Source: a virus
DNA length: 39,122 nucleotides
Reading direction: 5' to 3' (one strand)
Virus record (IMG/VR): IMGVR_UViG_3300045911_000217
Coordinates: 1 to 39,122 of that record
Part shown: one piece after another, positions 333 through 39,122 of the stretch
How positions within the stretch are numbered: position 1 is the stretch's first letter
Layout of the letters: every line of letters starts with the position of its first letter
Program-made: the position numbers and the translations under genes
The notes under the pieces: generated by a model
Seen by the model: the letters and a program-made list of their open reading frames with translations, nothing else
Told to the model about the DNA's origin: nothing
The model's database searches: none

Positions 333-503
333 CTTAAGATACTTTCTCCAGTTTTGAGATTTCGGATAATTTCGACCGATCGCCAAAAATCGGCCGCTAC
401 CCTATATGCTCGTCGAATCGACCGAAAGTTTCAAGTATACAGACGTATAGTAGTACAGTAGTAATATACAGGCGTATAGTGGTAGTGGTAGTGGTAGTGG
501 TAG
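333..503. promoter_or_regulatory. Leader and upstream region of the leftward ParB-like gene, with GTA/GTGGTA simple repeats
   Basis: This stretch holds the leader of the gene ending at the left edge. At 397-411 (read on minus) is GAGCATATAGGGTAG, the same 15-mer found on plus at 1037-1051 before the primase gene. From about 435 to 506 the sequence degenerates into GTATA/GTAGTA and then four to five GTGGTA units. No gene is visible. Confidence 0.5.
397..411 (-). promoter_or_regulatory. Promoter-like or operator element, left copy
   Basis: GAGCATATAGGGTAG on minus, 64 nt upstream of the ParB-like start. The identical 15-mer sits in opposite orientation before the divergent primase operon, so the two outward transcription units share the element. 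CATATAGGGT could carry a -10 box, but I see no convincing -35, so the promoter role is an inference. Confidence 0.4.
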
Positions 504-670
504 TGTACAACTGTATAATCGAAAAAATCGCTAAAGGGGAAATAGAGAGACCAATAGTTGAATAGGATGGTAGGATAGTAAGTTAAGGGATTACTATTCT
601 ACTGTTCTATTCAACTATTGGCCTTTTCTATTTCCCCTTTGGCGATTTTTTTCAATTATACACCTGTTCA
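504..670. repeat. 167-bp foldback (long inverted repeat) element, copy 1
   Basis: It starts TGTACAACTGTATAATCGAA and ends with the near-complement TTCAATTATACACCTGTTCA. The two arms of roughly 78 nt pair imperfectly (AATCGCTAAAGGGGAAATAG with CTATTTCCCCTTTGGCGATT, and CCAATAGTTGAATAG with CTATTCAACTATTGG), leaving a short AGTTAAGGGATT-like centre. It is followed by CTGCATCTGG and then by an identical second copy. It could be a MITE-like element, a strong RNA hairpin or an origin structure. Confidence 0.9.
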
Positions 671-680
671 CTGCATCTGG

Positions 681-847
681 TGTACAACTGTATAATCGAA
701 AAAATCGCTAAAGGGGAAATAGAGAGACCAATAGTTGAATAGGATGGTAGGATAGTAAGTTAAGGGATTACTATTCTACTGTTCTATTCAACTATTGGCC
801 TTTTCTATTTCCCCTTTGGCGATTTTTTTCAATTATACACCTGTTCA
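681..847. repeat. 167-bp foldback element, copy 2 (identical to 504-670)
   Basis: By eye it is base-for-base identical to 504-670, at a 177-bp period. Such identity with no coding constraint points to recent duplication or active homogenisation. Its final ACCTGTTCA is also the start of the adjacent 33-bp array, so that array seems to have grown out of the element's end. Confidence 0.9.
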
Positions 848-1012
848 GTACTACCGCTACCGTTACTATTCACCTGTTCAGTACTACCACTACCGTTACT
901 ATTCATTTGTCCAGTACTACCACTACCGTTACTATTCATTTGTCCAGTACTACCACTACCGTTACTATTCATTTGTCCAGTACTACCGCTACCGTTACTA
1001 TTCACCTGTTCA
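841..1012. repeat. 33-bp tandem array, 5 copies plus a partial sixth
   Basis: Units start at 841, 874, 907, 940 and 973, with a partial unit at 1006. The type sequence begins CTGTTCAGTACTACCGCTAC and ends CGTTACTATTCAC, with CTGTTCA/TTGTCCA variants. Its reverse complement carries GTAGTGGTAGT, matching the GTGGTA repeats left of the foldbacks, so the whole block has a rough mirror symmetry. Confidence 0.95.
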
Positions 1013-1036
1013 GCTGAAATTTCTCGATCGGTCGGT

Positions 1037-1051
1037 GAGCATATAGGGTAG
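1037..1051 (+). promoter_or_regulatory. Promoter-like or operator element, right copy
   Basis: GAGCATATAGGGTAG lies 37 nt upstream of the primase-helicase ATG, preceded by CGATCGGTCGG. It is the inverted partner of the element at 397-411. Confidence 0.4.
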
Positions 1052-1088
1052 GCGGATAGTGTGGTTTCATATTATCAGGAATCTAAAA

Positions 1089-3728
1089 ATGCCAAGCAAG
1101 ACTGAGGCGATCAAATTATTTTTAGATACTTACGCCATTCGTGAGTTGGCGAAGCTCTACTCTTATGAAATGGAGGTACAGGTAACAGTATCTCAAAATA
1201 ACGGTGAGCGTATCTCGGGTGATTTCAAAGGCAGACACTGGCACGGGTTCACTGATGGTATCCAAACATGGAAGCCTATACGCGTACCATATCGCGCAAT
1301 GACCGATCCTGAGTATACAGATACGCCCATGACATGGGACATGACAGCGCATGCTGAGGGAATCGGCATGACGGGTTGGAACTGGGTGAGGAAACAAAGT
1401 ATATGGGTAGCTTTTGACTTTGACGCTATCACTGGCCATTCGGATAGGCACGCGAAAAAACTGTCCGACGAAGAGATGAAAGAGGTTTTGGAGAAACTAA
1501 AAGGGCTAGACTGTGTCACAATAAGAAAGTCAAAGAGTGGTAAAGGACTACATGTGTATGTGTTCCTTGAGCCAGTATCTACAAATAATCACACTGAGCA
1601 TGCAGCGGTCGCTCGCGCTATCCTTAGTTACTTATCTGCGTTAGCTAATTTCGATTTCAACCTTAAGGTAGATGTCATCGGCGGTAATATGTGGGTGTGG
1701 CACAAGCACGCATCCACTGACGGTTTTCAGTTAATTAAAGAGGGCACTAGGCTATGTAAAGTCCCTTCCAACTGGAAAGATTATCTTAGTGTAATGAGTG
1801 GGCGTAAGAAGAAAAGCTATCCGAGCTTCGTCATGCCGGAGGAAGAAAACACCTTTTCCCAATTGACTGGAAGGAGATTAAGAACTCCACTTGACGACCA
1901 ACACAAGAGACTACTATTGTGGTTGACAGATAATTATCCGTCCTGCAACTGGTGGGACGCTGAGCATCATATGATGGTCACCCACACATTCTTACTTAAA
2001 AAAGCTCATGAGCAGCTGAAGTTAAAAGGGTTGTTTGACACAGTTGCAAAAGGTACAGAAGAAGGACACGATATCAACTGCTTCATGTTCCCTCTGCCTG
2101 AGGGTGCTTGGAAAGTATATAGATATAATAGAGGGTTTCAAGAGAACCCATTGTGGCAACATAAGGAGTGGACTACTATATACTATAACCGGTTACCTGA
2201 GCTTGAGAATATAGCTGACTATTTCGGAGGTGTGGAGCGAAAGTCTGGAGGGTTCGCTTTCTCTGCACAAGCATCTAAAGATGTTATTTCTGCCTTGGGT
2301 GCCAAGGTTCCTGGCTCATGGACAGCACCAACTAATTTATCTATACACAAGAGTGGCAAACTCCTAGTCGAGGTTGAGCAGAAGGTAGAAGGGTGGGTTC
2401 AAGAAGGCAAGAAAAGCCGCTATATGGCCGCTCTTCCAACTCTCCCTCAATCCAATTGTGAGTTGGAGAGTTTGGATGATCAATTACGTCATCTTGTGAC
2501 AGAAACGGGTGAAGATTGTGGTTGGGTGATTAAAACACAATACAAATGGAATAGTGAGCCTTTTCAGCACGTCCGTATGTATGTAAGAGGGTTAGGATAT
2601 GGGCCGAAGGAAGAGTCTCACATACTTGGTAATAATGTCACAAATTGTTGGACACTTGTCAATGAGCCTTTCAAAGATGAATATCTTAAAGACAGGAAGT
2701 GGAACAAGTATTCCGCCCAGTTCAGTGTTATACCTTCCGCTAACAGGGAAGACTTATCCTACCCAACCTGGACAAAAATCTTAGATCACATTGGGAAGAA
2801 TCTAACTCCCGGTGTGCTTGAGAATGAATGGTGCCGGAAGCATCAAATAATTAATGGTATGGACTGGCTCAAGTGCTGGATTGCTAGCATGTTTCAGTAT
2901 CCAAGTGAGCCTTTACCTTATCTGTTCCTTTATGGCCCACAAAATACTGGCAAGAGCATCTTTCATGAGGCTTTATCTTTACTTTTAGATAGGGGTGTTG
3001 CTAGGGCTGACACTGCTTTGTTAAATAACTTCAATGGTGAGTTGGAGGGAGCGGTTTTAGCTGTTATCGAAGAGACAGATATGTCTAAAAATAAGGTGGC
3101 CTATAATCGCATCAAAGACTGGGTCACAAGCAGACATATTAACATCCATAAAAAAGGCAGACAGCCTTACTTAATAAAAAATACTCTACACTTTGTTCAT
3201 GCAAGCAACAGTTACTTAGCTTGTCCTATCTTCCCTGGTGATACCCGTATAACTATTATCCGTGTAGACTCACTGGAGCAAGCTATACCTAAGCGTGATA
3301 TGATTGACAAGCTAATGGCAGAAGCTAGTGACTTCCTTGCAGAGATTATTTCTCTTGAGCTTCCGCCGCCTTGTGACCGCTTGAACATACCTTGTATTTC
3401 TACTGAAGATAAAATCTTTGCTGAGGATGCACACAAAACGTCTTTGGAAGAATTTATCGAAAATAACTGCACTTACGCCCCAGGGTATATTGTTACACTT
3501 GCTGAGCTTCGGAGGGCTTTGTGGGACGTTATCGAACCAGATGAAACTAGAGTATGGACCTCTCGCCGTATATCTAAAGAACTGCCACTGCCATTCATAA
3601 AAGGTAGAGACCCTCAGACTAATGATGTTATTGTTGGTAACATAATTCTTGAATCCAATGCAACTTTTGAAACAAGGAAACCGTGCTTCGTCAAGAATGG
3701 CAAACTTTATAAAGGGGATGATTTGTGA
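1089..3728 (+). CDS. Primase-helicase: AEP-type primase fused to SF3/D5-type helicase
   Basis: An 879-aa replication protein that would prime and unwind phage DNA. The N-terminal third has archaeo-eukaryotic primase motifs: a metal-binding FDFD (about residues 109-112) and a SGKGLHVYVF block (about 150-160) matching the sxH nucleotide-binding motif. The C-terminal half is an SF3 AAA+ helicase with Walker A GPQNTGKS near residue 617, an acidic Walker B stretch (GAVLAVIEE), and a later HASNS that fits the polar sensor/motif C, followed by DTRITII. The start is placed at ATG 1089 because AGGA lies 8 nt upstream; an in-frame GTG at 1059 would add 10 residues with a poorer site. It is first in a three-gene operon and its TGA overlaps the next start. 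The architecture resembles phage and plasmid P4-type replication proteins. Confidence 0.88.
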   Translation: MPSKTEAIKLFLDTYAIRELAKLYSYEMEVQVTVSQNNGERISGDFKGRHWHGFTDGIQTWKPIRVPYRAMTDPEYTDTPMTWDMTAHAEGIGMTGWNWVRKQSIWVAFDFDAITGHSDRHAKKLSDEEMKEVLEKLKGLDCVTIRKSKSGKGLHVYVFLEPVSTNNHTEHAAVARAILSYLSALANFDFNLKVDVIGGNMWVWHKHASTDGFQLIKEGTRLCKVPSNWKDYLSVMSGRKKKSYPSFVMPEEENTFSQLTGRRLRTPLDDQHKRLLLWLTDNYPSCNWWDAEHHMMVTHTFLLKKAHEQLKLKGLFDTVAKGTEEGHDINCFMFPLPEGAWKVYRYNRGFQENPLWQHKEWTTIYYNRLPELENIADYFGGVERKSGGFAFSAQASKDVISALGAKVPGSWTAPTNLSIHKSGKLLVEVEQKVEGWVQEGKKSRYMAALPTLPQSNCELESLDDQLRHLVTETGEDCGWVIKTQYKWNSEPFQHVRMYVRGLGYGPKEESHILGNNVTNCWTLVNEPFKDEYLKDRKWNKYSAQFSVIPSANREDLSYPTWTKILDHIGKNLTPGVLENEWCRKHQIINGMDWLKCWIASMFQYPSEPLPYLFLYGPQNTGKSIFHEALSLLLDRGVARADTALLNNFNGELEGAVLAVIEETDMSKNKVAYNRIKDWVTSRHINIHKKGRQPYLIKNTLHFVHASNSYLACPIFPGDTRITIIRVDSLEQAIPKRDMIDKLMAEASDFLAEIISLELPPPCDRLNIPCISTEDKIFAEDAHKTSLEEFIENNCTYAPGYIVTLAELRRALWDVIEPDETRVWTSRRISKELPLPFIKGRDPQTNDVIVGNIILESNATFETRKPCFVKNGKLYKGDDL

Positions 3729-4279
3729 TAGTGATTGGATTAGGCCATCGTAGACAATCAGGCAAAGATACTGCTGCTAAAGCTCTTCAGCAGTATTTAA
3801 ATGTGAATAAGAATCTGAAAGTAAAAATTGAAAGTATGGCTACTAAATTAAAAGAAGTAGCTACATACTTATTCAGTTATGCTGGTATGAAGGCTCCAAG
3901 ATTCTATGACCAGAACCGGAAGCTAAGGTCTGAGAATTTATCTATAGGTAAAAGTCCAAGAGAAATCTGGATCAGCATCGGTATGGCAATGAGAGACATT
4001 GACCCCAATGTTTGGGTAGAGAATGTCTTTCATCACAATCACAATTGTGACGTTCTTATCATACCTGACATTAGGTTTCACAATGAAGCGGAAGCGGTCA
4101 AGAAAAATGGTGTACTGATCAAGGTGACACGACCAGGCGTAACACAGTATGACGATGTAGCAGACTCTTGTCTTGCAGATTATTCTGACTGGGATGAGGA
4201 AATTGTCAATGATTCTACTATTAAAGAATTAAGCAACAAAATTATCGCTATTTGGGAAAAGCATTATCCTGGAGTGTAG
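3725..4279 (+). CDS. Deoxynucleoside monophosphate kinase-like P-loop protein
   Basis: A 184-aa protein that begins at a GTG overlapping the primase stop codon (GTGA, 4 nt), with AAGGGG just upstream, so it is translationally coupled. The N-terminus IGLGHRRQSGKDTAAKAL is a P-loop of the type seen in phage dNMP kinases. The later block VLIIPDIRFHNEAEAVKKNG followed by VLIKVTRPG is the family's typical core strand, Asp-x-Arg and lid region. The family phosphorylates dNMPs to dNDPs for phage DNA synthesis in the cytoplasm. The substrate cannot be read from the sequence. Confidence 0.8.
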   Translation: MIVIGLGHRRQSGKDTAAKALQQYLNVNKNLKVKIESMATKLKEVATYLFSYAGMKAPRFYDQNRKLRSENLSIGKSPREIWISIGMAMRDIDPNVWVENVFHHNHNCDVLIIPDIRFHNEAEAVKKNGVLIKVTRPGVTQYDDVADSCLADYSDWDEEIVNDSTIKELSNKIIAIWEKHYPGV

Positions 4280-22825: not shown

Positions 22826-23554
22826 TTATATAACTCCATATTGATCTATGAATTCACCTATTTCTAACGGAAGAACAGACTGCCAAGGCGGGGACCGTCT
22901 AGCTTCAGGTTGTAGTTCATGCAAAGTCACCCCAAACGTATCTAGATCCTTTGAGAAGTCATAATTGTTACAATAAGTGATATCGTCAAACGGTATATTC
23001 ATTTTCTTTAAAACATTATATGCGGCTGCTTTTGGATCAGAAAGTATCTCTCTATAATGAACAGGAATAATACCGTAGCGACACTCATTTAGTTTGCCTA
23101 ATATAGAACCGATCATACCGTCAGGCTCTAAGAGATTTTTAGCACGCTCAAAGATTGTATTGCCTGAGAATTGATGAGTCCATGGATTTTGTAACCTCAA
23201 CCTTTCAAAACTTGCAACAATTTCTTTCAAGTCACGCATGGGAAAAATTATCTTTAGATCCGAACCATATAGATCTAGAAGAAGCTCATAACACTTTATC
23301 CATGTCCTAGACTTATCTATTACAGTTTTACCACCATGAAAAGATGAAATAAAACCTTTAATCCCTTCTTTAAGTTTGGGTACAACTGAACTATACCCTT
23401 GTGCTTGAAAGTTTGTGTTAGCAGTCCACTTTTCCCGAATGTCGAAAATTAATTGTGACAGGCCGTTTGTTGGCGTAACTGGGATTACCGAATTCAAGTA
23501 GGCTGATAATAGCGTTGACCCTGAACGAGGGAGTCCAGCCATAAAATAAATCAT
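22826..23554 (-). CDS. Sulfotransferase family protein
   Basis: 242 aa with the P-loop-like PAPS-binding signature GLPRSGSTLL at residues 7-16. A second family block is FPMRDLKEIVASF (104-116), where the R and following residues fit the 3'-phosphate-binding loop, and HYREILSDP (166-174) matches the VVRYEDLLxxP-type motif. The family transfers sulfate from PAPS to hydroxyl or amine groups. No signal peptide, so it acts in the cytoplasm. It lies between tail-fibre and tail genes with 4-nt coupling, which suggests it modifies a host surface glycan precursor or a virion component; that is inference. Confidence 0.85.
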   Translation of the reverse strand: MIYFMAGLPRSGSTLLSAYLNSVIPVTPTNGLSQLIFDIREKWTANTNFQAQGYSSVVPKLKEGIKGFISSFHGGKTVIDKSRTWIKCYELLLDLYGSDLKIIFPMRDLKEIVASFERLRLQNPWTHQFSGNTIFERAKNLLEPDGMIGSILGKLNECRYGIIPVHYREILSDPKAAAYNVLKKMNIPFDDITYCNNYDFSKDLDTFGVTLHELQPEARRSPPWQSVLPLEIGEFIDQYGVI

Positions 23555-24774
23555 GTATTCACCTCTATAGCCCTATAAATAGCAACCCAACGAATCGTAG
23601 TTGACGCAGCGCCTGTTACTTGAATACCGAATCGACCGTTTGAAGTATCCACATTAATATCAGCGTCCCAGGAAGCAACATCTCTATGATAGATTTCTTT
23701 ACTTGATGTTCCTAAAATAGCTAAAGAAGCGTTTGTTGTGTTTCTCCGGATAACAAACTTAAAGAAAAATATTGCATTGTCACCAGTTGTAGACCGACTA
23801 ATAACTTGTGCATTAACATAATAGAGATTATTGTTTGCAGGGGCAAAAGTACCAGTACCACCAGCTAACAGAACAAGAGGAGTTGCATTAGTGGTAGTGC
23901 CGCGAAAAAGGGTATAAGCATATCTGTTGTCATTGTTTGCAGCAAAACCACCAAGTGACCTAATCATTCTTGCGGATAAATTAGTTGTACTACCTACACC
24001 CCAAGTTAAGGCATTTGCTGCACCTGAACTACAATTGCTACCAACAGTTATGGTGGATGAACCATTTATACTATTAGAATCACCAAACAAAAAACTAAGC
24101 AAAGAAGGACTTTGATTTTTACCAAAATTAAAACCGTTAGTTATAGGTCCAACGTCATCACCCATAGTAAAGTTAGATGTACTATAAGCGGTTACTTTAC
24201 CGGGAAAGCCTATATATACGCCTGTTGCAGAAGTAGAAGTTAATCTACCACTCATATATAAAGCATATTGAGACACAGTAGTTTGAGTTCTATTAATATT
24301 TTCGCAACCAATTGCTGTACCGCCACGATCCACCGTATTATCAGCTCCTCCTATGCAAACAGATCGTTCACTTAGAGGGATGCGGGTTGTATTATTTTTC
24401 TTCAGCTGAAGGTCAACGCTATAATTACCGGTTGAATCCAAAGGTATTGTTGGTCGAATAGCAGTCCCGTCATAGCGGAGAAAAATACCCTTTTGACTCG
24501 GAGCGTAGCAGAAGACTCTTTTAGTCCCTGAAGAAAAATTAACTAGAGAGTTCGAGTTTGAACTACTCAAAACAGTATCTCTAGATAACTGATCGGGAGA
24601 GGTGAAAGTACCCTCTCCGGTTTCCCACTCGGTCCCAAACTCTATACAATAATAGACTTTAGAGCCTGATGTGAAAACAGAGTTAAAAGTAAAATATGCT
24701 CCAAAAGCACCATCGAGTGTAATTGTCCCGGTGCCAGTTGAGGTTGAAGCCTCAATAACACGATCAAAGATCAT
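23551..24774 (-). CDS. Tail fibre/adhesin protein B
   Basis: 407 aa from ATG 24774, which makes a 4-nt ATGA overlap with the stop of fibre A. The N-terminal ~100 residues (DRVIEASTSTGTGTITLDGA, YYCIEFGTEWETGEGTF, LSRDTVLSSSNSNSLVNFSS) are the virion-attachment domain shared with the next gene. A Gly/Ser/Asn-rich middle with adhesin-head-like turns follows, and the C-terminal ~110 residues (TTRNASLAILGT-like strand, ASWDADINVDTSNGRFGIQV, TGAASTTIRWVA) are shared with fibre A too. The two look like duplicated fibres with divergent central domains. Confidence 0.75.
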   Translation of the reverse strand: MIFDRVIEASTSTGTGTITLDGAFGAYFTFNSVFTSGSKVYYCIEFGTEWETGEGTFTSPDQLSRDTVLSSSNSNSLVNFSSGTKRVFCYAPSQKGIFLRYDGTAIRPTIPLDSTGNYSVDLQLKKNNTTRIPLSERSVCIGGADNTVDRGGTAIGCENINRTQTTVSQYALYMSGRLTSTSATGVYIGFPGKVTAYSTSNFTMGDDVGPITNGFNFGKNQSPSLLSFLFGDSNSINGSSTITVGSNCSSGAANALTWGVGSTTNLSARMIRSLGGFAANNDNRYAYTLFRGTTTNATPLVLLAGGTGTFAPANNNLYYVNAQVISRSTTGDNAIFFFKFVIRRNTTNASLAILGTSSKEIYHRDVASWDADINVDTSNGRFGIQVTGAASTTIRWVAIYRAIEVNT

Positions 24775-26012
24775 GTCTTCACCTCCACTGTTTTGACATT
24801 GGCTACCCAACGTATTGTAGTAGAAGCGGCCCCAGTAGCCTGCAACCTTAACCTGCCACTTGTGAAGTCAACCGAGAAGTCCCAAGCAGAATTATCTTCA
24901 TATACTACGGTTTTAACCGGAGTACCAAGAATACCAGAACTTGTGACAGCACCATAAAAATGATATGCTGCATTTTGATCCGTACCTACTCGTCTTGCAC
25001 AAACTAAAATATCAAACGCCCACAAAGAGCCTGAATCTATAGTCAATACCTCACTAGAGCCATCGAGAAATAACTCTGTAGGTGTGGCGTTACTCGTAAC
25101 AGTTCTTAAGATAAAATCAGAATGCTGAGCATCTCCGGCTGAGCTAAATTGTCCACTAGCTCTAGCTATCTGACCATACTTGTTTGCCAAAGCATTGTTG
25201 GATGCAAGAATCATTGAATAGGGTGCAGATGCAGTACAAGTGTTTGAGCCTAATACAATAGAATGTAAGCCCGATGCGGTAACACCACTCCCTTGAGCCA
25301 TACTATAATTACCGCTAGCAGTAACATTAGTACCGACAGCGAACGAATGAAGACCAGATGCAACGGCATTATTACCACAAGCGAAAGAATAATTACCACT
25401 TGCAGTAGAACTGCTTGACCCATGGACGAAAGTGTAGTCACCACTGGCAGTGCTACCATTCCCAGCTGCTACGGAATGCTTACCGCTTGCCAGGTTAGCA
25501 AACCCACCTAAGCATACGGCAAAATCGTTTGTAGCTCGGTTCCTAGCACCACCACAAATGACGCTATAATCACCGCTAGCTACCTGGTTAGAGTTATTAC
25601 GTTCCCCTTGCAGGTCAACCGCATAAGCTCCCCGAGTACCGCCAGCTGTGGAGCCACCAATAGTTTGGTTACGCCAAATGATAGCAGTACCGGAAACTAT
25701 CAACGGATAATGTATAGACACGTTTGGCGTAGTGAACACATCTTTGATACCGGCAGAAAAGGTAACTAAGTTATTATTGTTTGAGCTACTATATACTGTA
25801 GTTCGTGATAAAGTATCTGGAGAACCTGAAGTCACTGTGCCCAACCCAACTTCCCACTCGTTTGCACTTTGGTGGGCTATACAATAATAGCAAGGGTTCC
25901 CACTGCCAATTGCTGAAACAAAACCTCTAGCACCATCAGGAATTACTGTATCAAAACTAATTGTTCCAGTGCCAGTGGTCGTAGTTGTTTGTCTAACTCG
26001 ATCCGCTAGCAT
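24771..26012 (-). CDS. Tail fibre/adhesin protein A with YadA-head-like repeats
   Basis: 413 aa from ATG 26012 with AGGAG upstream. The N-terminal domain starts MLADRVRQTTTTTGTGTISF and includes YYCIAHQSANEWEVGLGTV. The centre has about eight 14-residue repeats of the form 'A-S-G-x-(Y/H)-S-x-x-x-G-x-x-x-x' (SGDYTFVHGSSSSTA, SGNYSFACGNNAVA, SGLHSFAVGTNVTA, SGNYSMAQGSGVTA), the left-handed parallel beta-roll of trimeric autotransporter heads. The C-terminus (SAWDFSVDFTSGRLRLQAT, TTIRWVANVKTVEV) is shared with fibre B. Expected role: trimeric host-recognition fibre. Confidence 0.8.
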   Translation of the reverse strand: MLADRVRQTTTTTGTGTISFDTVIPDGARGFVSAIGSGNPCYYCIAHQSANEWEVGLGTVTSGSPDTLSRTTVYSSSNNNNLVTFSAGIKDVFTTPNVSIHYPLIVSGTAIIWRNQTIGGSTAGGTRGAYAVDLQGERNNSNQVASGDYSVICGGARNRATNDFAVCLGGFANLASGKHSVAAGNGSTASGDYTFVHGSSSSTASGNYSFACGNNAVASGLHSFAVGTNVTASGNYSMAQGSGVTASGLHSIVLGSNTCTASAPYSMILASNNALANKYGQIARASGQFSSAGDAQHSDFILRTVTSNATPTELFLDGSSEVLTIDSGSLWAFDILVCARRVGTDQNAAYHFYGAVTSSGILGTPVKTVVYEDNSAWDFSVDFTSGRLRLQATGAASTTIRWVANVKTVEVKT

Positions 26013-27570
26013 CACCTTCTCCTCTTACCTGCCGACCTGGTTCTGTATTGGTGTCATATACTTGTTGTTTCTCTTGCTTCGCATCTCCGCCGAGATCTTT
26101 AAGACCCCTTGCGGCAGGGTTCGTAAGATGGACTCCCTGAGCTTGCGCAATGCGAGAAAGACGTTCCGCATGCTCCACCGCCGCTTTATCTATAGTATCT
26201 TTAGGATAGCCCATTAACTCAGCAGCCAATGCAAGGTCAAGGTAACCGTTTTCCACCGCTCTAGAAACCGTTGACGGGTCACTTGTGCCAGCTTTGGCTT
26301 CAAGAATTTCTTTTTCAATCTCTTCCATCTCTTCCAACTTAATATCTCTACCAATAAGTAGTTTGCAAACTTGAATCATTGCTTGTTTCTGGAAAGTCGA
26401 ACTAGGAATCTTGACAGCAATATCAGCTAATTGTTTTGCCTCTTCAATCCGGTCAGTTGTCCGCTTCAATGTAACACTGGTCGGGTAGAATACAGACGCT
26501 GGAGCTTCATTTTCATACATCGACCAATAGCGAGATATTGCCCGTTCCATTGATTCTAACTTGGTAACTATAGATAAAATCCCGGTCTCTACTGAGTTCG
26601 ATAAAGACTCTACATTAGTAAAGACCAACTCACGAATTTCTCGCTTGAGTTGTTCTTGCTTTTCCATCGAGGCCCTGAGCGGTTCTGGACTGGGGTGAAT
26701 GAACCCTGGCCGGTCCATCCCCTGAGGGTATCTCCTACCACGATTAGTACCAGTAGCCACTTCCTCTTCTAACGGCTTCAAATGTAGAGAATTTGCACGA
26801 AAATCATATTGTTCCGTATAGAATGGAAAGTTTGACGAAAGGGAGTAAGCAACATCTGCTGATGCCATGTTGAGTAGAGCAATTTGATAATTATCTACAT
26901 TACGCAACAAAGACGTTCCTAAGTCACAAACGTAGAACGGGATCTCAGGTATATCTATCAACCTAGGTTCTTCTTCTTCAATCTGAACCATGACTCCCAG
27001 TTCAGTCAGCCACATTCGCCGTGATTGTTGTTTGACACCTACAGGTAATCCATCTTTGTAGTCAAACGTATTTTCACTTAGCAAAACGTGAGTGAAAGTA
27101 GACTTCCTGTAGTCATACTCCCAGGAATGTATTTGCTCGGCAGTGTACACATAGAGATAAGGGTGCTTACCGTCGGTGTGAAGCAAAGTATTTCCAGATA
27201 ATTCTGGCATGTCCACATAGACACCTACTTTGCCCATTGGTAGCAACTCAGGCAAGATGCAATTACCAATGAAAGAGTTCATTGACGAATGATGTAAGTC
27301 AACATTGTGCTCCATTGAATGTTGATAACTTTTAGAGCCACCACGCCTTACCACATTAACTAACGAGGAGATAATGATATTCTTCACCTCGTCCACCGCT
27401 TGCTGAGCAAAGGCAGGATTATAACTAATCAACATACGTTTTTTGAAATCTTCGTCACCTTCTCGATCAGAAAATTTCTGAAGGTAGGATCGGATGAAAT
27501 AGTCCCCACCACAATATACGTCTCTCCATTTCTTCCACTGTGATAGAGACTGTAGGTAAAACGGGTGCAT
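25993..27570 (-). CDS. Portal protein
   Basis: 525 aa, directly after the large terminase. It begins MHPFYLQSLSQWKKWRDVYC and has an YNPAFAQQAVDEVKNIIISS block, LPELLPMGKVGVYVDMP, PYLYVYTAEQIHSWEY, then IPFYVCDLG and a long helical stem/wing region (QEQLKREIRELVFTNVES, ESMERAISRYWSMYE). The pattern is the one expected of the dodecameric portal that accepts the terminase. The last ~60 residues are Gln/Asp/Gly-rich and probably disordered. Confidence 0.9.
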   Translation of the reverse strand: MHPFYLQSLSQWKKWRDVYCGGDYFIRSYLQKFSDREGDEDFKKRMLISYNPAFAQQAVDEVKNIIISSLVNVVRRGGSKSYQHSMEHNVDLHHSSMNSFIGNCILPELLPMGKVGVYVDMPELSGNTLLHTDGKHPYLYVYTAEQIHSWEYDYRKSTFTHVLLSENTFDYKDGLPVGVKQQSRRMWLTELGVMVQIEEEEPRLIDIPEIPFYVCDLGTSLLRNVDNYQIALLNMASADVAYSLSSNFPFYTEQYDFRANSLHLKPLEEEVATGTNRGRRYPQGMDRPGFIHPSPEPLRASMEKQEQLKREIRELVFTNVESLSNSVETGILSIVTKLESMERAISRYWSMYENEAPASVFYPTSVTLKRTTDRIEEAKQLADIAVKIPSSTFQKQAMIQVCKLLIGRDIKLEEMEEIEKEILEAKAGTSDPSTVSRAVENGYLDLALAAELMGYPKDTIDKAAVEHAERLSRIAQAQGVHLTNPAARGLKDLGGDAKQEKQQVYDTNTEPGRQVRGEGDASGSS

Positions 27571-27571
27571 A

Positions 27572-29215
27572 TCAACTCCAGATATTCTGCGGTTTCATCA
27601 TAGTGCCTACAAATGGTAGGGCTATCTCAGCATAAGTCCTTGCATGGGCATAGTGATCTTGCCTATTTCCTTCAACGTATGCAGCTATAGCGTTACCTTT
27701 TCTATCTACACGGTAGATACGGACGGGTGCTTTTATTTGGTCACGATACTCGAAGTCAATATCTTTAGGTAACATGATTTTGTTGGTTCGGAATCGACCC
27801 AAAGCGAGATCCATCCAAGAGGTTCTATCGACAGTGATCGTTTCCTCATCTTCACTATTTACTGTAATTTGCTTACCATTCACGCTGTTACCATAGAAGC
27901 ATAACTTCACATAACCACGGAAGCGACTAGCGAAAGAAAATGCTAACCGGCGTTCCGGGTGAGCGTCAATGACACAGAAAGCCACACCGAAGGCATACAT
28001 CAATTCATCTAGCTGCTCAAAATTCAATACCTTATTTTGGTATATTACTTTAGGGATTGCATATGTATTTATGTCGTCGAAACCGTGATCTGGCAACTTC
28101 CACTCATCAATTTCCACATGAAGCCACTTGCCAACGTCAACACCCATTGTTATGAGAGTATTGGGTTCCCGACTTGTTCTCTTGAAATAGTCATGAATAC
28201 AGGAATCAATGTCGGAGTCATTAATTGAAGAGCCTTCAACAATGTGTTCCAAGCCCATTTTAGAGTTATAGAATTCTTGCTCTTCACCCCGGTCAGTTTG
28301 AGCTTTAAGATAACTTCTAGCTAGGTCAACCGGAGAAACTGTCATCGAGTATAGTTGATTGAGATAGAACCCTCTGGACGAACGATCTTTATGAGCCGGA
28401 ACCCATTCATTGTCAGATAACCATTCCGATTTCGTCCTATGATCTAGTTTCTTCTTGCAGAGACTACAAATAATATGACTGTGTATCAGTAAAGGGTCAG
28501 TAGGTGACTCACCAGTTATAACTAGAGACTCAGGAAAAGTTAATTGAGTACGTCGTGAGCACCCAGGACAAGTAAAGAAAAAATGTTCCATCGTGCTTTC
28601 ACGAAACATTTTATTGATGCCATAATTAGGTAGTGTAGGAGTGGATATAGCTAATACTTTCCTTTCCAACTGGCCAGCGGCTCGTTCAAGAGCTAGAGGA
28701 ACATTGTTTTGATCCATCTCGTCTAGCTCGTCTAAGATAATCCCTCCGGTAGGGATTGACTTCAGGCCCGACCGGGATTTGGAACCACGAATATAAAGAT
28801 TCGCGGTTCCAGCCCGTTTGTGACCTACGTTATCTACATTTGTGAATAGGTTGGAAAGGTAGGGTGACATTTCCAAAGCAGGGGCAAACCGAGCAGCAGA
28901 AAAGTCACCCGCGTCAGGAGTTTGTGCAGGTAAAATATATAAGCAATCAATACGTCGAACATCAATCAAATAAAATGTAGTATTCAACGCCCACTCAGTG
29001 AAGCCGACTTGAGCACATTTTTGCCCTACATTGACTTCTGCCTGAGAATCATGCATACCTTTTAGCCAAGGGTGATACTTAAAAGTCCAGGGACCGGGAT
29101 ACGGCTTACCCATTACACGATAAGTTTCAGCCCATTTGCTACAAGAAGTTACAGATTTTTTCCTTAAGCCGGAAGAAATCTGATTAACTAACAGTTGTGC
29201 TAAGTTCTGTTTCAT
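27572..29215 (-). CDS. Terminase large subunit, GpA-like
   Basis: 547 aa. ATPase: a deviant Walker A at about 64-74 (GQKCAQVGFTE), Walker B at 159-167 (IILDELDEM). Zinc-finger-like CPGC (216-219) and CSLC (250-253) lie between the two domains, as in lambda GpA. Nuclease: GVDVGKWLHVEI with D360, FCVIDAHPERR with D417, and DHYAHARTYAEIAL near 520, in the right order. It packages DNA into the procapsid and cuts it. It overlaps the gene upstream by 32 nt and is followed within 2 nt by the portal. Confidence 0.95.
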   Translation of the reverse strand: MKQNLAQLLVNQISSGLRKKSVTSCSKWAETYRVMGKPYPGPWTFKYHPWLKGMHDSQAEVNVGQKCAQVGFTEWALNTTFYLIDVRRIDCLYILPAQTPDAGDFSAARFAPALEMSPYLSNLFTNVDNVGHKRAGTANLYIRGSKSRSGLKSIPTGGIILDELDEMDQNNVPLALERAAGQLERKVLAISTPTLPNYGINKMFRESTMEHFFFTCPGCSRRTQLTFPESLVITGESPTDPLLIHSHIICSLCKKKLDHRTKSEWLSDNEWVPAHKDRSSRGFYLNQLYSMTVSPVDLARSYLKAQTDRGEEQEFYNSKMGLEHIVEGSSINDSDIDSCIHDYFKRTSREPNTLITMGVDVGKWLHVEIDEWKLPDHGFDDINTYAIPKVIYQNKVLNFEQLDELMYAFGVAFCVIDAHPERRLAFSFASRFRGYVKLCFYGNSVNGKQITVNSEDEETITVDRTSWMDLALGRFRTNKIMLPKDIDFEYRDQIKAPVRIYRVDRKGNAIAAYVEGNRQDHYAHARTYAEIALPFVGTMMKPQNIWS

Positions 29216-33024: not shown

Positions 33025-34215
33025 TCAGAAAGCGACTTTGTCCGCAGCAGCAGCAGCAGCAGGCGAACGAAGTTCTTCTGGCATTGGAAGTCCAAACGCC
33101 AACAGAGCATCGGTTACTGCTTGTGTGTCACCATTGCCAACGATGGCAGTAAGTAGAGTAGTCAGTTTGGGTTCTGTTGAGACTCGCGAGAAAGCGAGCA
33201 GAATATGCTTCACTTTCTCATTCCTGGACAGAACCAAGTCAATCGCAGGAAGTTTGGACCCAGAGTCGGGATCGCCCATGGTAGCGGCGATTACGTCCCG
33301 AACGATATCAGAAGCGAACAACGAAGCTCGCTTTGAAGCCTCTTTAACCGACCATCGAGGGTCGGTTTTTGTACTAGGGCTGACGCCAGTATCGACACTA
33401 TGGTATTGTTCCCATAGCTTTCGCATTTCGGCCTCGCCGCCTTTTTTGAGAGCGGCGTTCAGAGCCATGATTCGGGCGCGATCAACCCTTGCATACAAGG
33501 TAACTTTTCCCCCATCCTGCTGACGGCACGTCAGCAGGAATTGTTCTTGGATGTCCTTAGGTAAGGACAAAACTCCCAAGATCATCTGTCCCAAAGTTCC
33601 GTTCAGCCAGGATTTCAAAAACGAACGACGCTTTTCTGCATCAACGATTGCTTCGTACTCCCTAGCCTTTTTCAAGTCCCCAAACTGGGCTACCAAGTTA
33701 TAGGTAGCCTGGGCTATCTGATCAAAAGATAGCCCTTGGGCGTAGAGACGCCACACTACGCGAACGGTCTCTTCGCGATTTAGGGATTTGTGACTGTTAT
33801 GATCATTGACGAGAACCTCGCGTTCCAGGGACGAGAGGGGAGGGTAGACGACACAATCGAGACGCGACAATTCCTTCTTCGTGTCGACATCTACGTCCGC
33901 ACGAGCGAGAATCGCCTGAACCGCGCGAAGCCGCCGATTGCCTTGGAGCACAAGGTATCGGCCATGCTCTGTTTCCTCGACGATCAACGGATTGGTGATC
34001 CTCCCAATAGTGAGGATCGAATCAACTAGCGGGGTTAGGTCGTAGTTGTCTGCATTGCGGACGTTTGTATTGTCGTCAGAATACAAGGAAGACGTAGCAA
34101 GCGTCTTCCTGCTTGCCTTGGTGCTGATCTTAAGGTCTACAGAAACGTTGGTGTTGTTGTTCATGGTAGTGTTGTCGTTGTTCATGGTAGTGTTGTTCAT
34201 GTTAGTGTTGCTCAT
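33025..34215 (-). CDS. ParB-like nuclease-domain protein
   Basis: 396 aa. Residues ~60-100 hold the ParB core: DLTPLVDSILTIGRITNPLI and YLVLQGNRRLRAVQAILA, with GNRR at 92-95. A helical region follows (SLNREETVRVVWRLYAQGLS, FDQIAQAT) that could be a DNA-binding helix-turn-helix. The first ~25 residues are Asn/Thr/Met-rich, produced by a short DNA repeat (ATGAACAACACTACC-type units), and the C-terminus has an Ala run from a GCA repeat. ATG 34215 is supported by AGGAG that overlaps the end of the preceding gene, so the two are coupled. It sits beside the 13-, 68- and 16-bp arrays at 34698-35690. Confidence 0.8.
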   Translation of the reverse strand: MSNTNMNNTTMNNDNTTMNNNTNVSVDLKISTKASRKTLATSSLYSDDNTNVRNADNYDLTPLVDSILTIGRITNPLIVEETEHGRYLVLQGNRRLRAVQAILARADVDVDTKKELSRLDCVVYPPLSSLEREVLVNDHNSHKSLNREETVRVVWRLYAQGLSFDQIAQATYNLVAQFGDLKKAREYEAIVDAEKRRSFLKSWLNGTLGQMILGVLSLPKDIQEQFLLTCRQQDGGKVTLYARVDRARIMALNAALKKGGEAEMRKLWEQYHSVDTGVSPSTKTDPRWSVKEASKRASLFASDIVRDVIAATMGDPDSGSKLPAIDLVLSRNEKVKHILLAFSRVSTEPKLTTLLTAIVGNGDTQAVTDALLAFGLPMPEELRSPAAAAAADKVAF

Positions 34216-34625: not shown

Positions 34626-34697
34626 CCTAGGCGAGAGATTTTTTCGATTTGATCGTATCTTGTTTCAGGATACGCACTTAGGGAAATCGTGTGGTCG

Positions 34698-35037
34698 GAT
34701 CCTACCCACAGATCGTGCCCACAGATCGTGCCCACAGATCCTGCCCACAGATCGTGCCCACAGATCCTGCCCACAGATCGTGTGCCCACAGATCGTGCCC
34801 ACAGATCCTGCCCACAGATCGTGCCCACAGATCCTGTGGCTAGATCCTGCCCACAGATCCTGTGGCTAGATCGTGTGGCTAGATCGTGTGGCTAGATCGT
34901 GTGGCTAGATCCTGCCCACAGATCGTGTGCCCACAGATCCTGCCCACAGATCGTGCCCACAGATCGTGCCCACAGATCCTGTGGCTAGATCGTGTGGCTA
35001 GATCGTGTGGCTAGATCGTGTGGCTAGATCGTGTCTA
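34698..35037. repeat. 13-bp tandem array, about 26 units, iteron-like
   Basis: Unit GATC(G/C)TGCCCACA with a second variant GATC(G/C)TGTGGCTA; occasionally a unit is 15 bp (GATCGTGTGCCCACA). Every unit carries a GATC. The array begins about 70 bp upstream of the promoter of the ParB-like operon, which is where iterons or a centromere would lie. Confidence 0.95.
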
Positions 35038-35056
35038 ATTTACTTACAAATTCAAA

Positions 35057-35370
35057 ACCGTCTATATTAAAGAATATAATATGACAGACGGTTCATATGA
35101 TCCGTTCAACCCTTCCCATCAGTAACCGCTTGTATTAGGGAACGTAATATGACAGACGGTTCATATGATCCGTTGAACCCTTCCCATCAGTAGTGGTCTA
35201 TATTAGAAAATATAATATGACAGACGGTTCATATGATCCGTTCAACCCTTCCCATCAGTAACCGCTTGTATTAGGGAACGTAATATAACAGACGGTTCAT
35301 ATGATCGGTTCAACCCTTCCCATCAGTAGTGGTCTATATTAGGGGACGTAATATGACAGACGGTTGATAT
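35057..35370. repeat. 68-bp repeat array with ABAB higher-order structure
   Basis: Units start at 35083 (A), 35151 (B), 35219 (A, identical to the first), 35287 (B-like) and 35355 (partial), preceded by a partial B at 35057. Each contains ACGGTTCATATGATCCGT, an almost perfect 18-bp palindrome. A units carry CAGTAACCGCTTGTATTAGG, B units CAGTAGTGGTCTATATTAG. So the period of exact identity is 136 bp. Confidence 0.95.
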
Positions 35371-35690
35371 CATCCGTCTGACATATCATCCGTCGGACAT
35401 ATCATCCGTCTGACATATCATCCGTCGGACATATCATCCGTCTGACATATTATCTGACAGACATATGATCGGTCTGACATATTATCTGACAGACATATTA
35501 TCGGTCTGACATATTATCTGACAGACATATGATCCGTCGGACATATGATCGGTCTGACATATGATCCGTCGGACATATGATCGGTCTGATATATGATCGG
35601 TCTGACATATGATCCGTCGGACATATGATCCGTCGGACATATGATCCGTCGGACATATGATCCGTCGGACATATTATCCGTCGGACATAT
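35371..35690. repeat. 16-bp tandem array, about 20 units
   Basis: Unit GACATATCATCCGTCG with alternating TCG/TCT ends, then ATGATC, ATTATC and CTGACA variants. TCCGTCGGA and CATATG palindromes recur throughout. Its core CATATGATCCGTC is the same as the palindrome of the 68-bp units, so this array looks like a shortened derivative of them. Confidence 0.95.
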
Positions 35691-35736
35691 CAAGCTAGCT
35701 TGAATCCGGAAACCTGACAAAGAATTCGTAAATTAG

Positions 35737-35936
35737 GAAGCCGGAGTTGGGAAGCCGGAATCGGGAAGCCGGAATTGGGAAGCCGGAGTTGGGAAGCCGG
35801 AGTTGGGAAGCCGGAGTTGGGAAGCCGGAGTTGGGAAACACGACAAAGAATTCGCAAATTGGGAAACCTGACAAAGAATTCGTAAATTGGGAAGCCGGAA
35901 TTGGGAAGCCGGAATCGGGAAGCCGGAATTGGGAAA
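35737..35936. repeat. 14-bp GGGAAGCCGGAATT-type tandem array with AATTCG spacers
   Basis: Units GGGAAGCCGGAATT / GGGAAGCCGGAGTT interrupted two to three times by CCTGACAAAGAATTCGTAAA or similar. No gene is seen. The stretch to 36272 holds only CATATG-rich and GTACAT-rich AT sequence. Confidence 0.9.
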
Positions 35937-36272
35937 CGCGACAAAAAATTCGTAAATTGAAAATCCGGACAAGGAATTCGTAAAAAGAAAGTCACGCGCG
36001 CGATAAGAAATAAAGATGCCGGCCATGGTGGGTAATATAATATGGGAGTATAAGCGAAACTTATGACCTGTCATAAGGTAAACTTTTGTACATCTGTACA
36101 TATGTACACGCGTGCATATGAACATATCAACACATGAACACATCATCGCATAAGCAAGCGTTGATATGAAAGCCGTCAGTGAAAAAAATGCCGGGGAAAC
36201 TCGAAATTTGTCAACAAGTGAGACGGGAGTTTGGCTGGAACTTTGTCAATAGGTGAGACAAAAGTTTGTGGG

Positions 36273-36306
36273 TGAAAAATTATCTGGGCACCCAGATAAT
36301 TTTTCA
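36273..36306. repeat. Perfect 16-bp inverted repeat (hairpin)
   Basis: TGAAAAATTATCTGGG-CA-CCCAGATAATTTTTCA. It is followed by another AAAAATTATC direct copy. There is no gene nearby that it could terminate, so a structural or protein-binding role is possible. Confidence 0.8.
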
Positions 36307-36334
36307 GCCTAAAAATTATCTTGAGATTTTTTAG

Positions 36335-36676
36335 AGGGTCCAAAATTAGGGTCGGGTCAAAGCTGGGGGTCCGGAGTCCGGGGGTCCGGGGTCGGGTCCA
36401 AGGGGGTCCGGGGTCCGGGTCAGCGGTCAGGGTCGGGTCAGGGTCGGAGTCCAGGGTCGGAGTCCAGGGTCAGGGCAGGGTCAGGTCGAGGGTCAAGGGT
36501 CAGAGGTCAAAAAAAAAAATCAGGGTCAAAATAAAAATAAAGTGAAAAGTCACGTCAAAAGTTGGGTCAAAGGTCAGGGTCAGGGTCAGGGTCAGGGTCA
36601 GGGTCAGGGTCAGGGTCAGGCCAAGTGGGTCAGGTCAGGCCAAGTGGGTCAGGTCAGGCCAAGTGGGTCAGGGTCA
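36335..36676. repeat. G-rich GGGTC(A/C/G) arrays, G-quadruplex-capable
   Basis: From 36335 GGGTCC/GGGTCGGG/GGTCCGG units, from about 36569 to 36620 an almost pure (GGGTCA) array of about 8 units, then three 19-bp units GGCCAAGTGGGTCAGGTCA to about 36676. Plus is the G-rich strand. GGGTCA is a telomere-like unit with four or more close GGG runs. Confidence 0.88.
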
Positions 36677-36876
36677 ACGGTCAACGATAACTATATGGAT
36701 ATAGTAACTATAGTAACTCCAGAATGCGAACTCAAATGATTTTCAAACTCGTTTTTTGACAAAAATAAAATTAAAATTAACCCCAACACCAATCAATGTA
36801 TGCCCATGCGTATGCATATAAGTATGCGCTTATATATTAGCATATTGATAAATTAACAAGTCAACAAAAATTCATA

Positions 36877-37116
36877 CATTGATACATAAGCATATACTTA
36901 TATGTCTATGCATTGATACATAAGCATATACTTATATGTCTATGCATTGATACATCAGTATACACTTATATGTCTATGCATTGATACATCAGTATACACT
37001 TATATGTCTATGCATTGATACATCAGTATATACTTATATGTCTATGCATTGATACATCAGTATGTACTTGTGAGTCCATGTGTTGATACATCAGTATGCG
37101 CTTATAGGCTAGTAGC
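36877..37116. repeat. 34-bp tandem array, 7 units
   Basis: Units start at 36877, 36911, 36945, 36979, 37013, 37047 and 37081: CATTGATACATAAGCATATA followed by CTTATATGTCTATG, drifting to CATCAGTATACACT in later copies. Each contains the quasi-palindrome ATAAGCATATACTTAT. Confidence 0.95.
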
Positions 37117-37250
37117 TGTACAAAAGTGATCCTAGCTTCAATCGCGATTAAATCAATTCTGAGCCACTTTGACCGAAAGGCGGGGTAGGGGTCAAGTGAG
37201 GGGTGAAAGTGGCTAGGCGGGGCTTATAGGGCCAGGAAATGGCATCTGGC
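37117..37250. repeat. 133-bp module A (TGTACAAAAGTGATCC ... GGCATCTGG)
   Basis: First of four diverged copies (37117, 37584, 38236, 38645). Shared blocks: TGTACAAAAGTGATCCTAGC, CAAT(C)G..TAAATC.ATTCT, GTGGCTAGGCG..GC.TATA, GCCAGGAAA(T/C)GGCATCTGG. Copies A and B are closer to each other, as are C and D. No coding potential is evident. Confidence 0.9.
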
Positions 37251-37287
37251 TTGACAAAATTCGCACCCTCACCAGAGGAGAGGGAAA

Positions 37288-37354
37288 ACGTATAAGAAAC
37301 TGTTGATGAATATTTTATAGGGCTGTAAAAATTCATCAATGGTCACTTATACGT
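37288..37354. repeat. Foldback A, after module A
   Basis: ACGTATAAGAAACTGTTGAT opposite ATTCATCAATGGTCACTTATACGT, a 67-bp imperfect inverted repeat and the shortest of the right-side foldbacks. Confidence 0.75.
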
Positions 37355-37577
37355 CAACACGTCAGCACGTCAGCACGTCAGCACGTCAACACGTCAGCAC
37401 GTCAGCACGTCAAACACAGAGCCGGAACAGGGAGCCGGAACAGGGAGCCGGAACAGGGAGCCGGAACAGGGAGCCGGAACACAGAGCCGGAACACAGAGC
37501 CGGAACAGGGGGCCGGAACAGGGAGCCGGAACAGGGAGCCAGCACACGGAGCCAGCACACGGAGCCAGCACAGGGAG
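37351..37577. repeat. 8-bp and 13-bp arrays between modules A and B
   Basis: ACGTCAGC/ACGTCAAC units (8 bp) at 37351-37413, then GAGCCGGAACAGG units (13 bp, about 12) at 37419-37577. GAGCCGGA is the same core as in the Pro-Ala coding repeats at 29823-29905 and 31376-31410. Confidence 0.9.
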
Positions 37578-37583
37578 AATTAG

Positions 37584-37716
37584 TGTACAAAAGTGATCCT
37601 AGCTCCAATCGCGATTAAATCGATTCTGAGACACTTTGACCGAAAATAGGCCCAAGGGTCAATGAAGCGGTCAAAGTGGCTAGGCGGGGCTTATAGGGCC
37701 AGGAAATGGCATCTGG
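37584..37716. repeat. 133-bp module B
   Basis: Second copy of the module, most similar to A. It ends at GGCATCTGG and is followed by the foldback at 37763-37961. Confidence 0.9.
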
Positions 37717-37762
37717 GTCAAGATCGCAAATTTTCGCGCCCCTCACCGGAAGAGAAGGAGAA

Positions 37763-37961
37763 ACGTATAAGCAACTGTTGATAAGTACCCCTATAAAGGG
37801 AAATAAGAGTTACACGGGAACTAATAGTAGAATAGGTCAGTAGAATAGAAGATTAGGATGATCTATTCTACTATTCTACTGAACTACTCTACTACTCATG
37901 GAAAGTCGTGTATAAGTCTTATTCCCCTTATAGGGGGTTCCATCAATCATTGCTTATATTT
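37763..37961. repeat. Foldback B, 199 bp
   Basis: Arm ACGTATAAGCAACTGTTGAT, GTACCCCTATAAAGGGAAAT, AAGAGTTACAC..., facing the near-complement with CTTATTCCCCTTATAGGGGG and ATCAATCATTGCTTATATT. The centre is CTATTCTACTATTCTACT with TAGTAGAATAG, also found in the left foldbacks. Confidence 0.85.
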
Positions 37962-37979
37962 TAGCCCTGTTAAAGTTAC

Positions 37980-38222
37980 CCACTCATCCACTCATCCACT
38001 CACCCACCCACCCATTCATCCCTTCATCCCTTCATCCGTTCATCCGTTCATCCCTTCATCCCTTCATCCCTTCATCCGTTCATCCGTTCATAAGTCATGA
38101 ATGAGGTCATGAAAATAAGTCATAGGGTCAGGTCACGGGTCAGGTCACGGGTCACGGGTCACGGGTCACGGGTCAGGGTCAGGGTCGGGGTCACGGGTCG
38201 GGGACAGGGGACAGGGACAGGA
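37980..38222. repeat. 8-bp CATCC arrays and GGTCACG arrays
   Basis: (C)CACTCATC, TTCATCCC and TTCATCCG 8-bp units at 37980-38091, then GGTCAC/GGGTCA/GGGGAC G-rich units at about 38129-38222. No gene. Confidence 0.85.
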
Positions 38223-38235
38223 GTGGGAAAATTAG

Positions 38236-38368
38236 TGTACAAAAGTGATCCTAGCTCCAATCGTCATAAAATCGATTCTAAGCCCTTCGGAGCAAAAATA
38301 GGCCCAAGGGTCAATGAGACGGTCAAAGTGGCTAGGTGAGGCGTATAACGCCAGGAAACGGCATCTGG
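38236..38368. repeat. 133-bp module C
   Basis: Third copy, closest to D (TCGTCATAAAATCGATTCTA, GAGGCGTATAACGCCAGGAA). GGCGTATAACGCC forms a small perfect hairpin here and in D. It is followed by TGATGGGGAGCGG. Confidence 0.9.
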
Positions 38369-38414
38369 TGATGGGGAGCGGAAAAAATTGACCCAAACCC
38401 TGACCAAAAATAAA

Positions 38415-38592
38415 ACATATAAGCAATGGTTGATGGAACCCCCTATAAAGGGAAATAAGAGTTACACAGGAACTGATAGTAGAATAGATCAGTAGGTCAG
38501 AAGGATAGAAGGTTAGAATCATCTATTCTACTATTCTACCGTTCTAATCTACTACTCATGGGAAGTCGTGTGTATACTATATTTTGCTTATA
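38415..38592. repeat. Foldback C, about 178 bp
   Basis: ACATATAAGCAATGGTTGAT then GGAACCCCCTATAAAGGGAA, facing a degraded partner that ends TTTTGCTTATAG. Its first arm matches the second arm of foldback B read in reverse. Confidence 0.8.
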
Positions 38593-38644
38593 GCACCGTT
38601 TCATTATTAGATGCTTATCTGTTGGTGATGAGCATAGGCAGTAG

Positions 38645-38777
38645 TGTACAAAATGGATCCTAGCTCCAATCGTCATAAAATCGATTCTAAGCCCTTCAGG
38701 GTGAAAATAGGCCCAAGGGTCGATTAAGCGGTCAAAGTGGCTAGGCGAGGCGTATAACGCCAGGAAACGGCATCTGG
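38645..38777. repeat. 133-bp module D
   Basis: Fourth copy, with TGTACAAAATGGATCCTAGC at the start. In place of a foldback it runs into the 13-bp array at 38817. Confidence 0.9.
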
Positions 38778-38816
38778 TGATGGGGAACCGAAAAGTGGCC
38801 CAAAATGTCGTCCCGG

Positions 38817-38965
38817 GTGATCGGCTGCGGTGATCGGCTGCGGTGATCGGCTGCGGTGACCGGCTGCGGTGACCGGCTGCGGTGACCGGCTGCGGTGATG
38901 GGGAGCAGTGACCAGCTGCGGTGATCGGCTGCGGTGATCGGCTGCGGTGACCGGCTGCGGTGACC
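38817..38965. repeat. 13-bp GGTGATCGGCTGC array, about 11 units
   Basis: Units alternate GGTGATCGGCTGC and GGTGACCGGCTGC. One unit reads GGTGATGGGGAGCAGTGACC, close to the GGTGATGGGGAGCGG after module C, so the array probably expanded from the module's 3' flank. Confidence 0.92.
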
Positions 38966-39122
38966 ACTCCTGAGGGGTCGGTTTCGGTCACTCCTGACCA
39001 CTCCTGAGGGGTCGGTTTCGGTCACTCCTGACCACTCCTGAGGGTCAGTTTGGGGGTCAAAATGACCACTCCTGAGGGTCGGTTTGGGGGTCAAAATGAC
39101 CACTCCTGACCACTCCTGAGGG
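38966..39122. repeat. 34-bp array running off the window edge
   Basis: ACTCCTGAGGGGTCGGTTTC-type units start at 38966, 39000, 39034, 39068 and 39102, all 34 bp apart. The last is cut by the window edge. Confidence 0.9.

Follow-up and report, generated by a model that had tools for sequence, protein, structure and literature searches.

Baculovirus hrs are repeated units with imperfect palindromes that are scattered in non-coding viral DNA and have been proposed to act as origins and enhancers, and in phage P4 ori/crr comprises two direct repeats of ~120 bp that are bound by the alpha protein. This alpha protein carries a Toprim primase (PMC4234260). In pRN1, a 100-nt stem-loop near the AEP-SF3 replication protein is needed for replication and is conserved in structure but little in sequence, and phage BIP-1 has a counterpart of this stem-loop (PMC4234260). 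Borg tandem repeats are perfect and occur genome-wide, genes included (PMC9879509). Here we describe a repeat-rich locus in record IMGVR_UViG_3300045911_000217, the whole 39,122-nt stretch of which is hereafter the window. It derives from a tailed virus and is a genome fragment, with genes for terminase, portal, major head protein and tape measure. Because its foldbacks match the pRN1 pattern in the type of protein, in their place and in their mode of conservation, the region probably serves to control replication, rather than being a gene for an RNA or a transposon. The fuller reading, in which it would be a cis-acting region controlling replication (or replication together with genome maintenance) and a set of 133-bp modules would be duplicated companion sites, we regard as evenly poised between right and wrong.

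The left end of the record cuts a ParB gene and its right end falls inside a tandem array, and ParB-domain genes adjoin both of its large non-coding regions (Table 1). All data used here are metagenomic assemblies, in which array copy numbers are as assembled, ORFs were called mechanically and records may be incomplete. GC skew tracks gene direction in the record and was not used as origin evidence. A deoxynucleotide monophosphate kinase-like gene lies after the primase gene (3725-4279), and the head and tail genes include one for a protein that has YadA-head-type repeats (24771-26015) and a sulfotransferase-like gene (22826-23554).

Table 1. Genes, non-coding regions, modules and foldbacks of the window, in order of position.
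Feature	Positions	Strand	Remarks
ParB gene	1-332	-	ParB_N domain; truncated by the record start; divergent from the primase gene
Left non-coding region	333-1088		from the divergent ParB gene to the primase gene; contains the left foldbacks and a 33-bp array
Left foldback 1	504-672		near-complete hairpin of ~165 nt; TAG before it as in modules B-D; homologous to foldbacks B and C
Left foldback 2	681-847		tandem copy of left foldback 1; at their mutual junction GCATCTGG is followed directly by TGTACAA
Primase-helicase gene	1089-3728	+	AEP-like motifs and P4/NrS-1-type helicase domain; start probably 1089, not 1059
Terminase large subunit gene	27572-29215	-	query for finding relatives
ParB-like gene	33025-34215	-	adjoins the right non-coding region
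Right array-rich region	34626-39122		upstream of the terminase operon; truncated by the record end; non-coding except for short mechanical ORFs
Module A	37117-37249	+	133 bp
Foldback A	37288-37354		short, with ACGTATAAG and CTTATACGT as its arms; homology to left foldbacks not detected
Module B	37584-37716	+	133 bp; 88.7% identical to A
Foldback B	37763-37960		outer arms TATAAGCAA/TTGCTTATA; inner inverted repeat with TAGTAGAATAG
Module C	38236-38368	+	133 bp
Foldback C	38413-38622		homologous to B; 5' arm and core conserved, 3' arm decayed
Module D	38645-38777	+	133 bp; no foldback after it; a 13-bp tandem array follows

A sequence-only reading of the window had reported four copies of a 133-bp module in the right region, and these were indeed recovered at the same positions, ungapped, all on the + strand and with E values of 5e-46 to 4e-23 against copy A. 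As it had also claimed, every copy starts with TGTACAAAA and ends with GGCATCTGG, and the tandem arrays between successive modules differ from one another. Identity across the four copies ranges from 76-92% (A-B 88.7, C-D 91.7, B-C 85.7, B-D 84.2, A-C and A-D both 75.9%). The duplication reaches past the module, with matches of 199 bp between A and B, 352 bp between B and C and 165 bp between C and D; therefore the true repeat unit is the module together with a variable spacer and a foldback, not the module alone. Since these matches differ in length beyond the module, GGCATCTGG is the point where the AB and CD flanks cease matching and not a proven element end. Among the reading frames of all four copies, none looks like a protein that they share.

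Foldbacks with matching arms had been described after modules A, B and C, a description that holds in part: the arms GTATAAGCAA/TTGCTTATA are exact for B, but A has ACGTATAAG/CTTATACGT instead, and in C the left arm is ATATAAGCAA and the right arm is decayed. Module D has no foldback following it. Because the 5' arm of foldback C was kept though its pairing partner decayed, sequence rather than pairing is what was kept in this copy. The foldback family extends outside 37117-38777: two more copies at the other end of the record show homology to foldbacks B and C, with Smith-Waterman scores of 94 and 76 where shuffles reached at most 57 and 54. Edge motifs are shared as well: TAGTGTACAA is confined to position 501 and the sites preceding modules B, C and D, and GCATCTGG, on the + strand, to position 673 and the ends of the four modules. 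Foldback homology and shared edge motifs thus place one repeat family in two distant non-coding regions of the record. Taken as a whole, the left repeat block (458-887) forms a single large, imperfect palindrome, at 77% over 446 aligned columns.

The primase encoded next to the left foldbacks is conserved in the lineage, with 33-54% identity to that of the window in relatives whose primase sequences were covered up to the helicase domain. The AEP-like motifs DFD, SxxGxGxH and D are invariant in 21 primase sequences, whereas Pfam AEP matches are weak and limited to a few members; no Toprim match was found in the primase, which has these AEP-like motifs instead. The helicase part is of the SF3 type and matches TIGR01613, below the cut-off of that model, as well as NrS-1-type primase chains (6k9c and 6k9e, which we take to be NrS-1). 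Judged by these motifs and matches, the replication protein appears to combine an AEP primase with an SF3 helicase, as at pRN1-type origins. Beside its gene, on the upstream side, the foldbacks at 504-672 and 681-847 are large stem-loops in non-coding DNA. The ParB domain PF02195 is present in 22 of 27 relatives and the HTH domain PF17762 in 19 of 19, while only ParB_N was detected in the window, where the left gene is truncated. No match to ParA (PF13614) passed the family cut-off in any of 19 relatives, whose records may be incomplete. Two HTH-bearing ParB proteins, and often an additional ParB-like one, are encoded in the lineage (relatives G003-G050).

Terminase relatives in IMG/VR are about 46-59% identical to that of the window, and a search for nearer relatives with the primase as query gave no match. 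Nearly every record in which both genes were found has a ParB_N gene adjoining, and divergent from, a gene for a primase of ~900 aa. Inverted repeats in the ParB-primase intergenic region exceed all 20 shuffles in 19 of 21 genomes, the window included, and the regions of these 21 genomes are mostly unrelated in sequence, with five matches between them, four of which span 25-47 bp. As in pRN1, structure is kept between relatives while sequence diverges. Foldback density is 29-fold higher in non-coding gaps than in coding DNA, a contrast that partly reflects ordinary features such as terminators, some of which may be included among the non-coding hairpins. On the terminase side, the largest non-coding gap upstream of the gene exceeds that downstream in 37 of 44 relatives, and the tandem arrays of relatives lie in the upstream gaps and never in the downstream gap. 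Primase-side sequence recurs in the terminase-side gap, over 102 bp at 89% in G035 and 105 bp at 73% in G039; such cross-copies go beyond all 100 shuffles in 9 of 20 relatives, several of them being short or within predicted ORFs, and none went beyond shuffles in the other 11, many of which are fragments. The contigs of relatives L002, L003, L005, L015, L019 and L066 start inside or beside a tandem array, as the window ends in one, and arrays probably break assemblies at such contig ends. Terminase contigs of relatives L035, L036 and L037 had been binned into MAGs of Thaumarchaeota, Acetothermia and Pontiellaceae, and since these taxa disagree, binning errors are likely.

From this architecture we infer an origin function for the foldbacks. 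The virus's own primase-helicase, possibly with ParB proteins, would recognise foldback DNA, and DNA synthesis would then start or be regulated there, as has been proposed for ORF904 at the pRN1 stem-loop origin. The 133-bp modules would be companion sites that act as DNA bound by protein, not as RNA, and that owe their spread on the terminase side to segmental duplication and gene conversion, and the tandem arrays would be slippage products of the same little-constrained DNA. Such a control region would evolve fast and act in cis. The role given to the modules is putative and is read from the company they keep, the modules themselves being found in no relative. A point against an origin is that pairing is not conserved in every copy, since the arms of copy C pair poorly.

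The main rival to the origin model is that foldbacks and modules are divergent promoters or operators, bound by a viral regulator (perhaps ParB) and controlling both the early genes that diverge there and the late operon on the terminase side, with no role in replication. Palindromes in divergent intergenic regions can also belong to promoters or operators, and several relatives do carry centred palindromes of 20-40 bp. Both non-coding regions, moreover, lie at gene starts, one at the ParB/primase divergence and the other at the start of the terminase operon, and HTH-bearing ParB proteins occur in every one of the 19 relatives. However, promoters of the sigma-70-like type, to which the count applies, show no clear excess in 36700-39122 (7 found versus 4.0 +/- 2.7 expected) and none lies inside a module, and foldbacks of 160-200 nt and modules of 133 bp are large for operators. 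The scan for promoters and terminators as a whole came out near background. We consider regulation of this kind possible, if on the unlikely side.

It may also be asked whether the locus reflects only repeat turnover, that is, a change-tolerant non-coding region whose copies arose by segmental duplication and have no function themselves. Between 34705 and 39109 there are about a dozen tandem arrays, built of 6-34-bp units that match at 69-100% and are concentrated in non-coding DNA; in the non-coding stretches on the right, arrays occupy 44-87% of the sequence. Several arrays contain GGTCA, whose density in the right region is 11.5 times that in coding DNA, a point for replication control but one in which the count is inflated by arrays that possibly share descent. 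The duplications vary in length, as turnover would have it, and GGTGATGGGGAGC, from the flank of a C-type module, recurs within the 13-bp array after D. The modules were also unfound elsewhere. In IMG/VR, two core patterns had no match and GATCCTAGCTYCAATCG had five, all of them chance matches in which similarity stops at the pattern edge; nhmmer found nothing in the loci of 104 relatives, blastn found nothing relevant in phage and plasmid collections, and a covariance model run over 50 whole records of relatives gave a single match (E 0.04, 57 bases) that was judged to be chance. This absence is weak evidence, given that some records are possibly incomplete and that the collections may lack near relatives.

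Turnover fits less well with how the copies have diverged. The claim that the module is kept while spacers turn over stands for the B-C pair, where the module is 14% different and the spacer 64%, and within the B-C foldback the 5' arm and core differ by 18% and the 3' arm by 39%. This unevenness across segments of the duplicate is not random (heterogeneity, 0 of 5000 permutations), although gene conversion or a single spacer replacement, as well as selection, could yield it. In 19 of 21 genomes foldbacks recur at the site between ParB and primase, and one foldback family is common to two distant regions of the record; both points also speak against turnover, which we judge to be quite unlikely as the whole account. 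The sequence-only reading had reserved random duplication for the case that the unit was absent outside this genome and showed neither covariation nor transcription; half of that case came about, in that the unit was unfound in any other record searched. Random duplication alone fails to cover the facts, because the companion foldbacks have a recurrent counterpart across the lineage.

A structured non-coding RNA on the + strand, in which module and foldback would be RNA gene and terminator, is very improbable. Copy B does fold well (z -3.2), CCTAGC/GCTAGG is invariant, and the covariation check proposed beforehand, run on the four copies, found two-sided change in two pairs out of 26, but it gave no strand-specific support, at the low power of n=4. 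The consensus-fold z is about -2.1 on both strands alike, three of the four copies fold about like their own shuffles with only B clearly better, and neither C nor D retains the 11-bp stem of B. Among the mismatches of the foldback arms, G-T (18) is in no clear excess over A-C (14), and no Rfam family was matched at its gathering score. Matches to Rfam at a lax threshold were low-complexity, miRNA-like chance hits. Taken together, nothing favours the RNA reading, at the low power that four copies give. Least probable of all is a non-autonomous mobile element bounded by TGTACAA...GCATCTGG, for although a sharp left edge follows TAG in modules B-D and left foldback 1 and GCATCTGG abuts TGTACAA at 673-687, the right edge is not sharp, no target-site duplication was seen by eye, and no copies were found in IMG/VR (core patterns), in phage and plasmid records or in 50 relatives. 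Of the three options first offered for the module, namely protein-binding site, structured RNA and element end, the evidence is best matched by a DNA site within a control region; the RNA is weak and the mobile element unsupported.

The replication-control reading can be extended to a system common to the lineage, an extension that we hold to be unlikely. An AEP/SF3 primase-helicase and orphan ParB proteins would act on genome-specific foldbacks at the primase gene and upstream of the terminase, coupling the start of replication to packaging via fast-coevolving sites, and the modules would be a class of site added by this virus itself. If the replication-control reading itself were right, a widespread group of uncultured tailed viruses would have pRN1-like foldback origins whose sequence has changed almost wholly between genomes while place and form were kept, accompanied by ParB proteins seemingly without ParA. 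It would offer a testable case of initiator-origin coevolution, and would allow one to ask whether ParB proteins that do no partitioning can act in replication or packaging. An origin could then be proposed in many metagenomic viral genomes by position, in the ParB-primase gap, and not by sequence.

How does this locus compare with the systems described so far? Like Borg arrays, its tandem arrays are fast-evolving and independently arising, but they are mostly imperfect and concentrated in the non-coding DNA of a tailed virus. Baculovirus hrs are similar in being repeated units with imperfect palindromes in viral non-coding DNA; they belong to an unrelated virus and have no sequence relation to the units seen here, which are longer and stand at two sites. 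As in ParABS systems with their parS sites, ParB proteins with ParB_N and HTH adjoin repeat-rich non-coding DNA, whereas here no ParA passed the cut-off in 19 relatives and no parS consensus was identified. Phage P4 ori/crr shares direct repeats of similar length and a helicase domain like that of the P4 family, and differs in the Toprim primase of alpha as against the AEP-like motifs found here; as to iterons of the P4 kind, the right region is enriched in GGTCA, an enrichment driven by the arrays. There is likewise a resemblance to pRN1 and BIP-1. In pRN1 the stem-loop lies downstream of the gene, whereas here the foldback is upstream, between divergent ParB and primase genes, and, as known here from sequence alone, is present in multiple copies, recurs in another region and is linked to 133-bp modules and arrays. 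What they have in common is a replication protein with AEP-like and SF3-type parts, a foldback of ~100 nt or more in the adjoining non-coding DNA, and conservation of the foldback rather than of its sequence.
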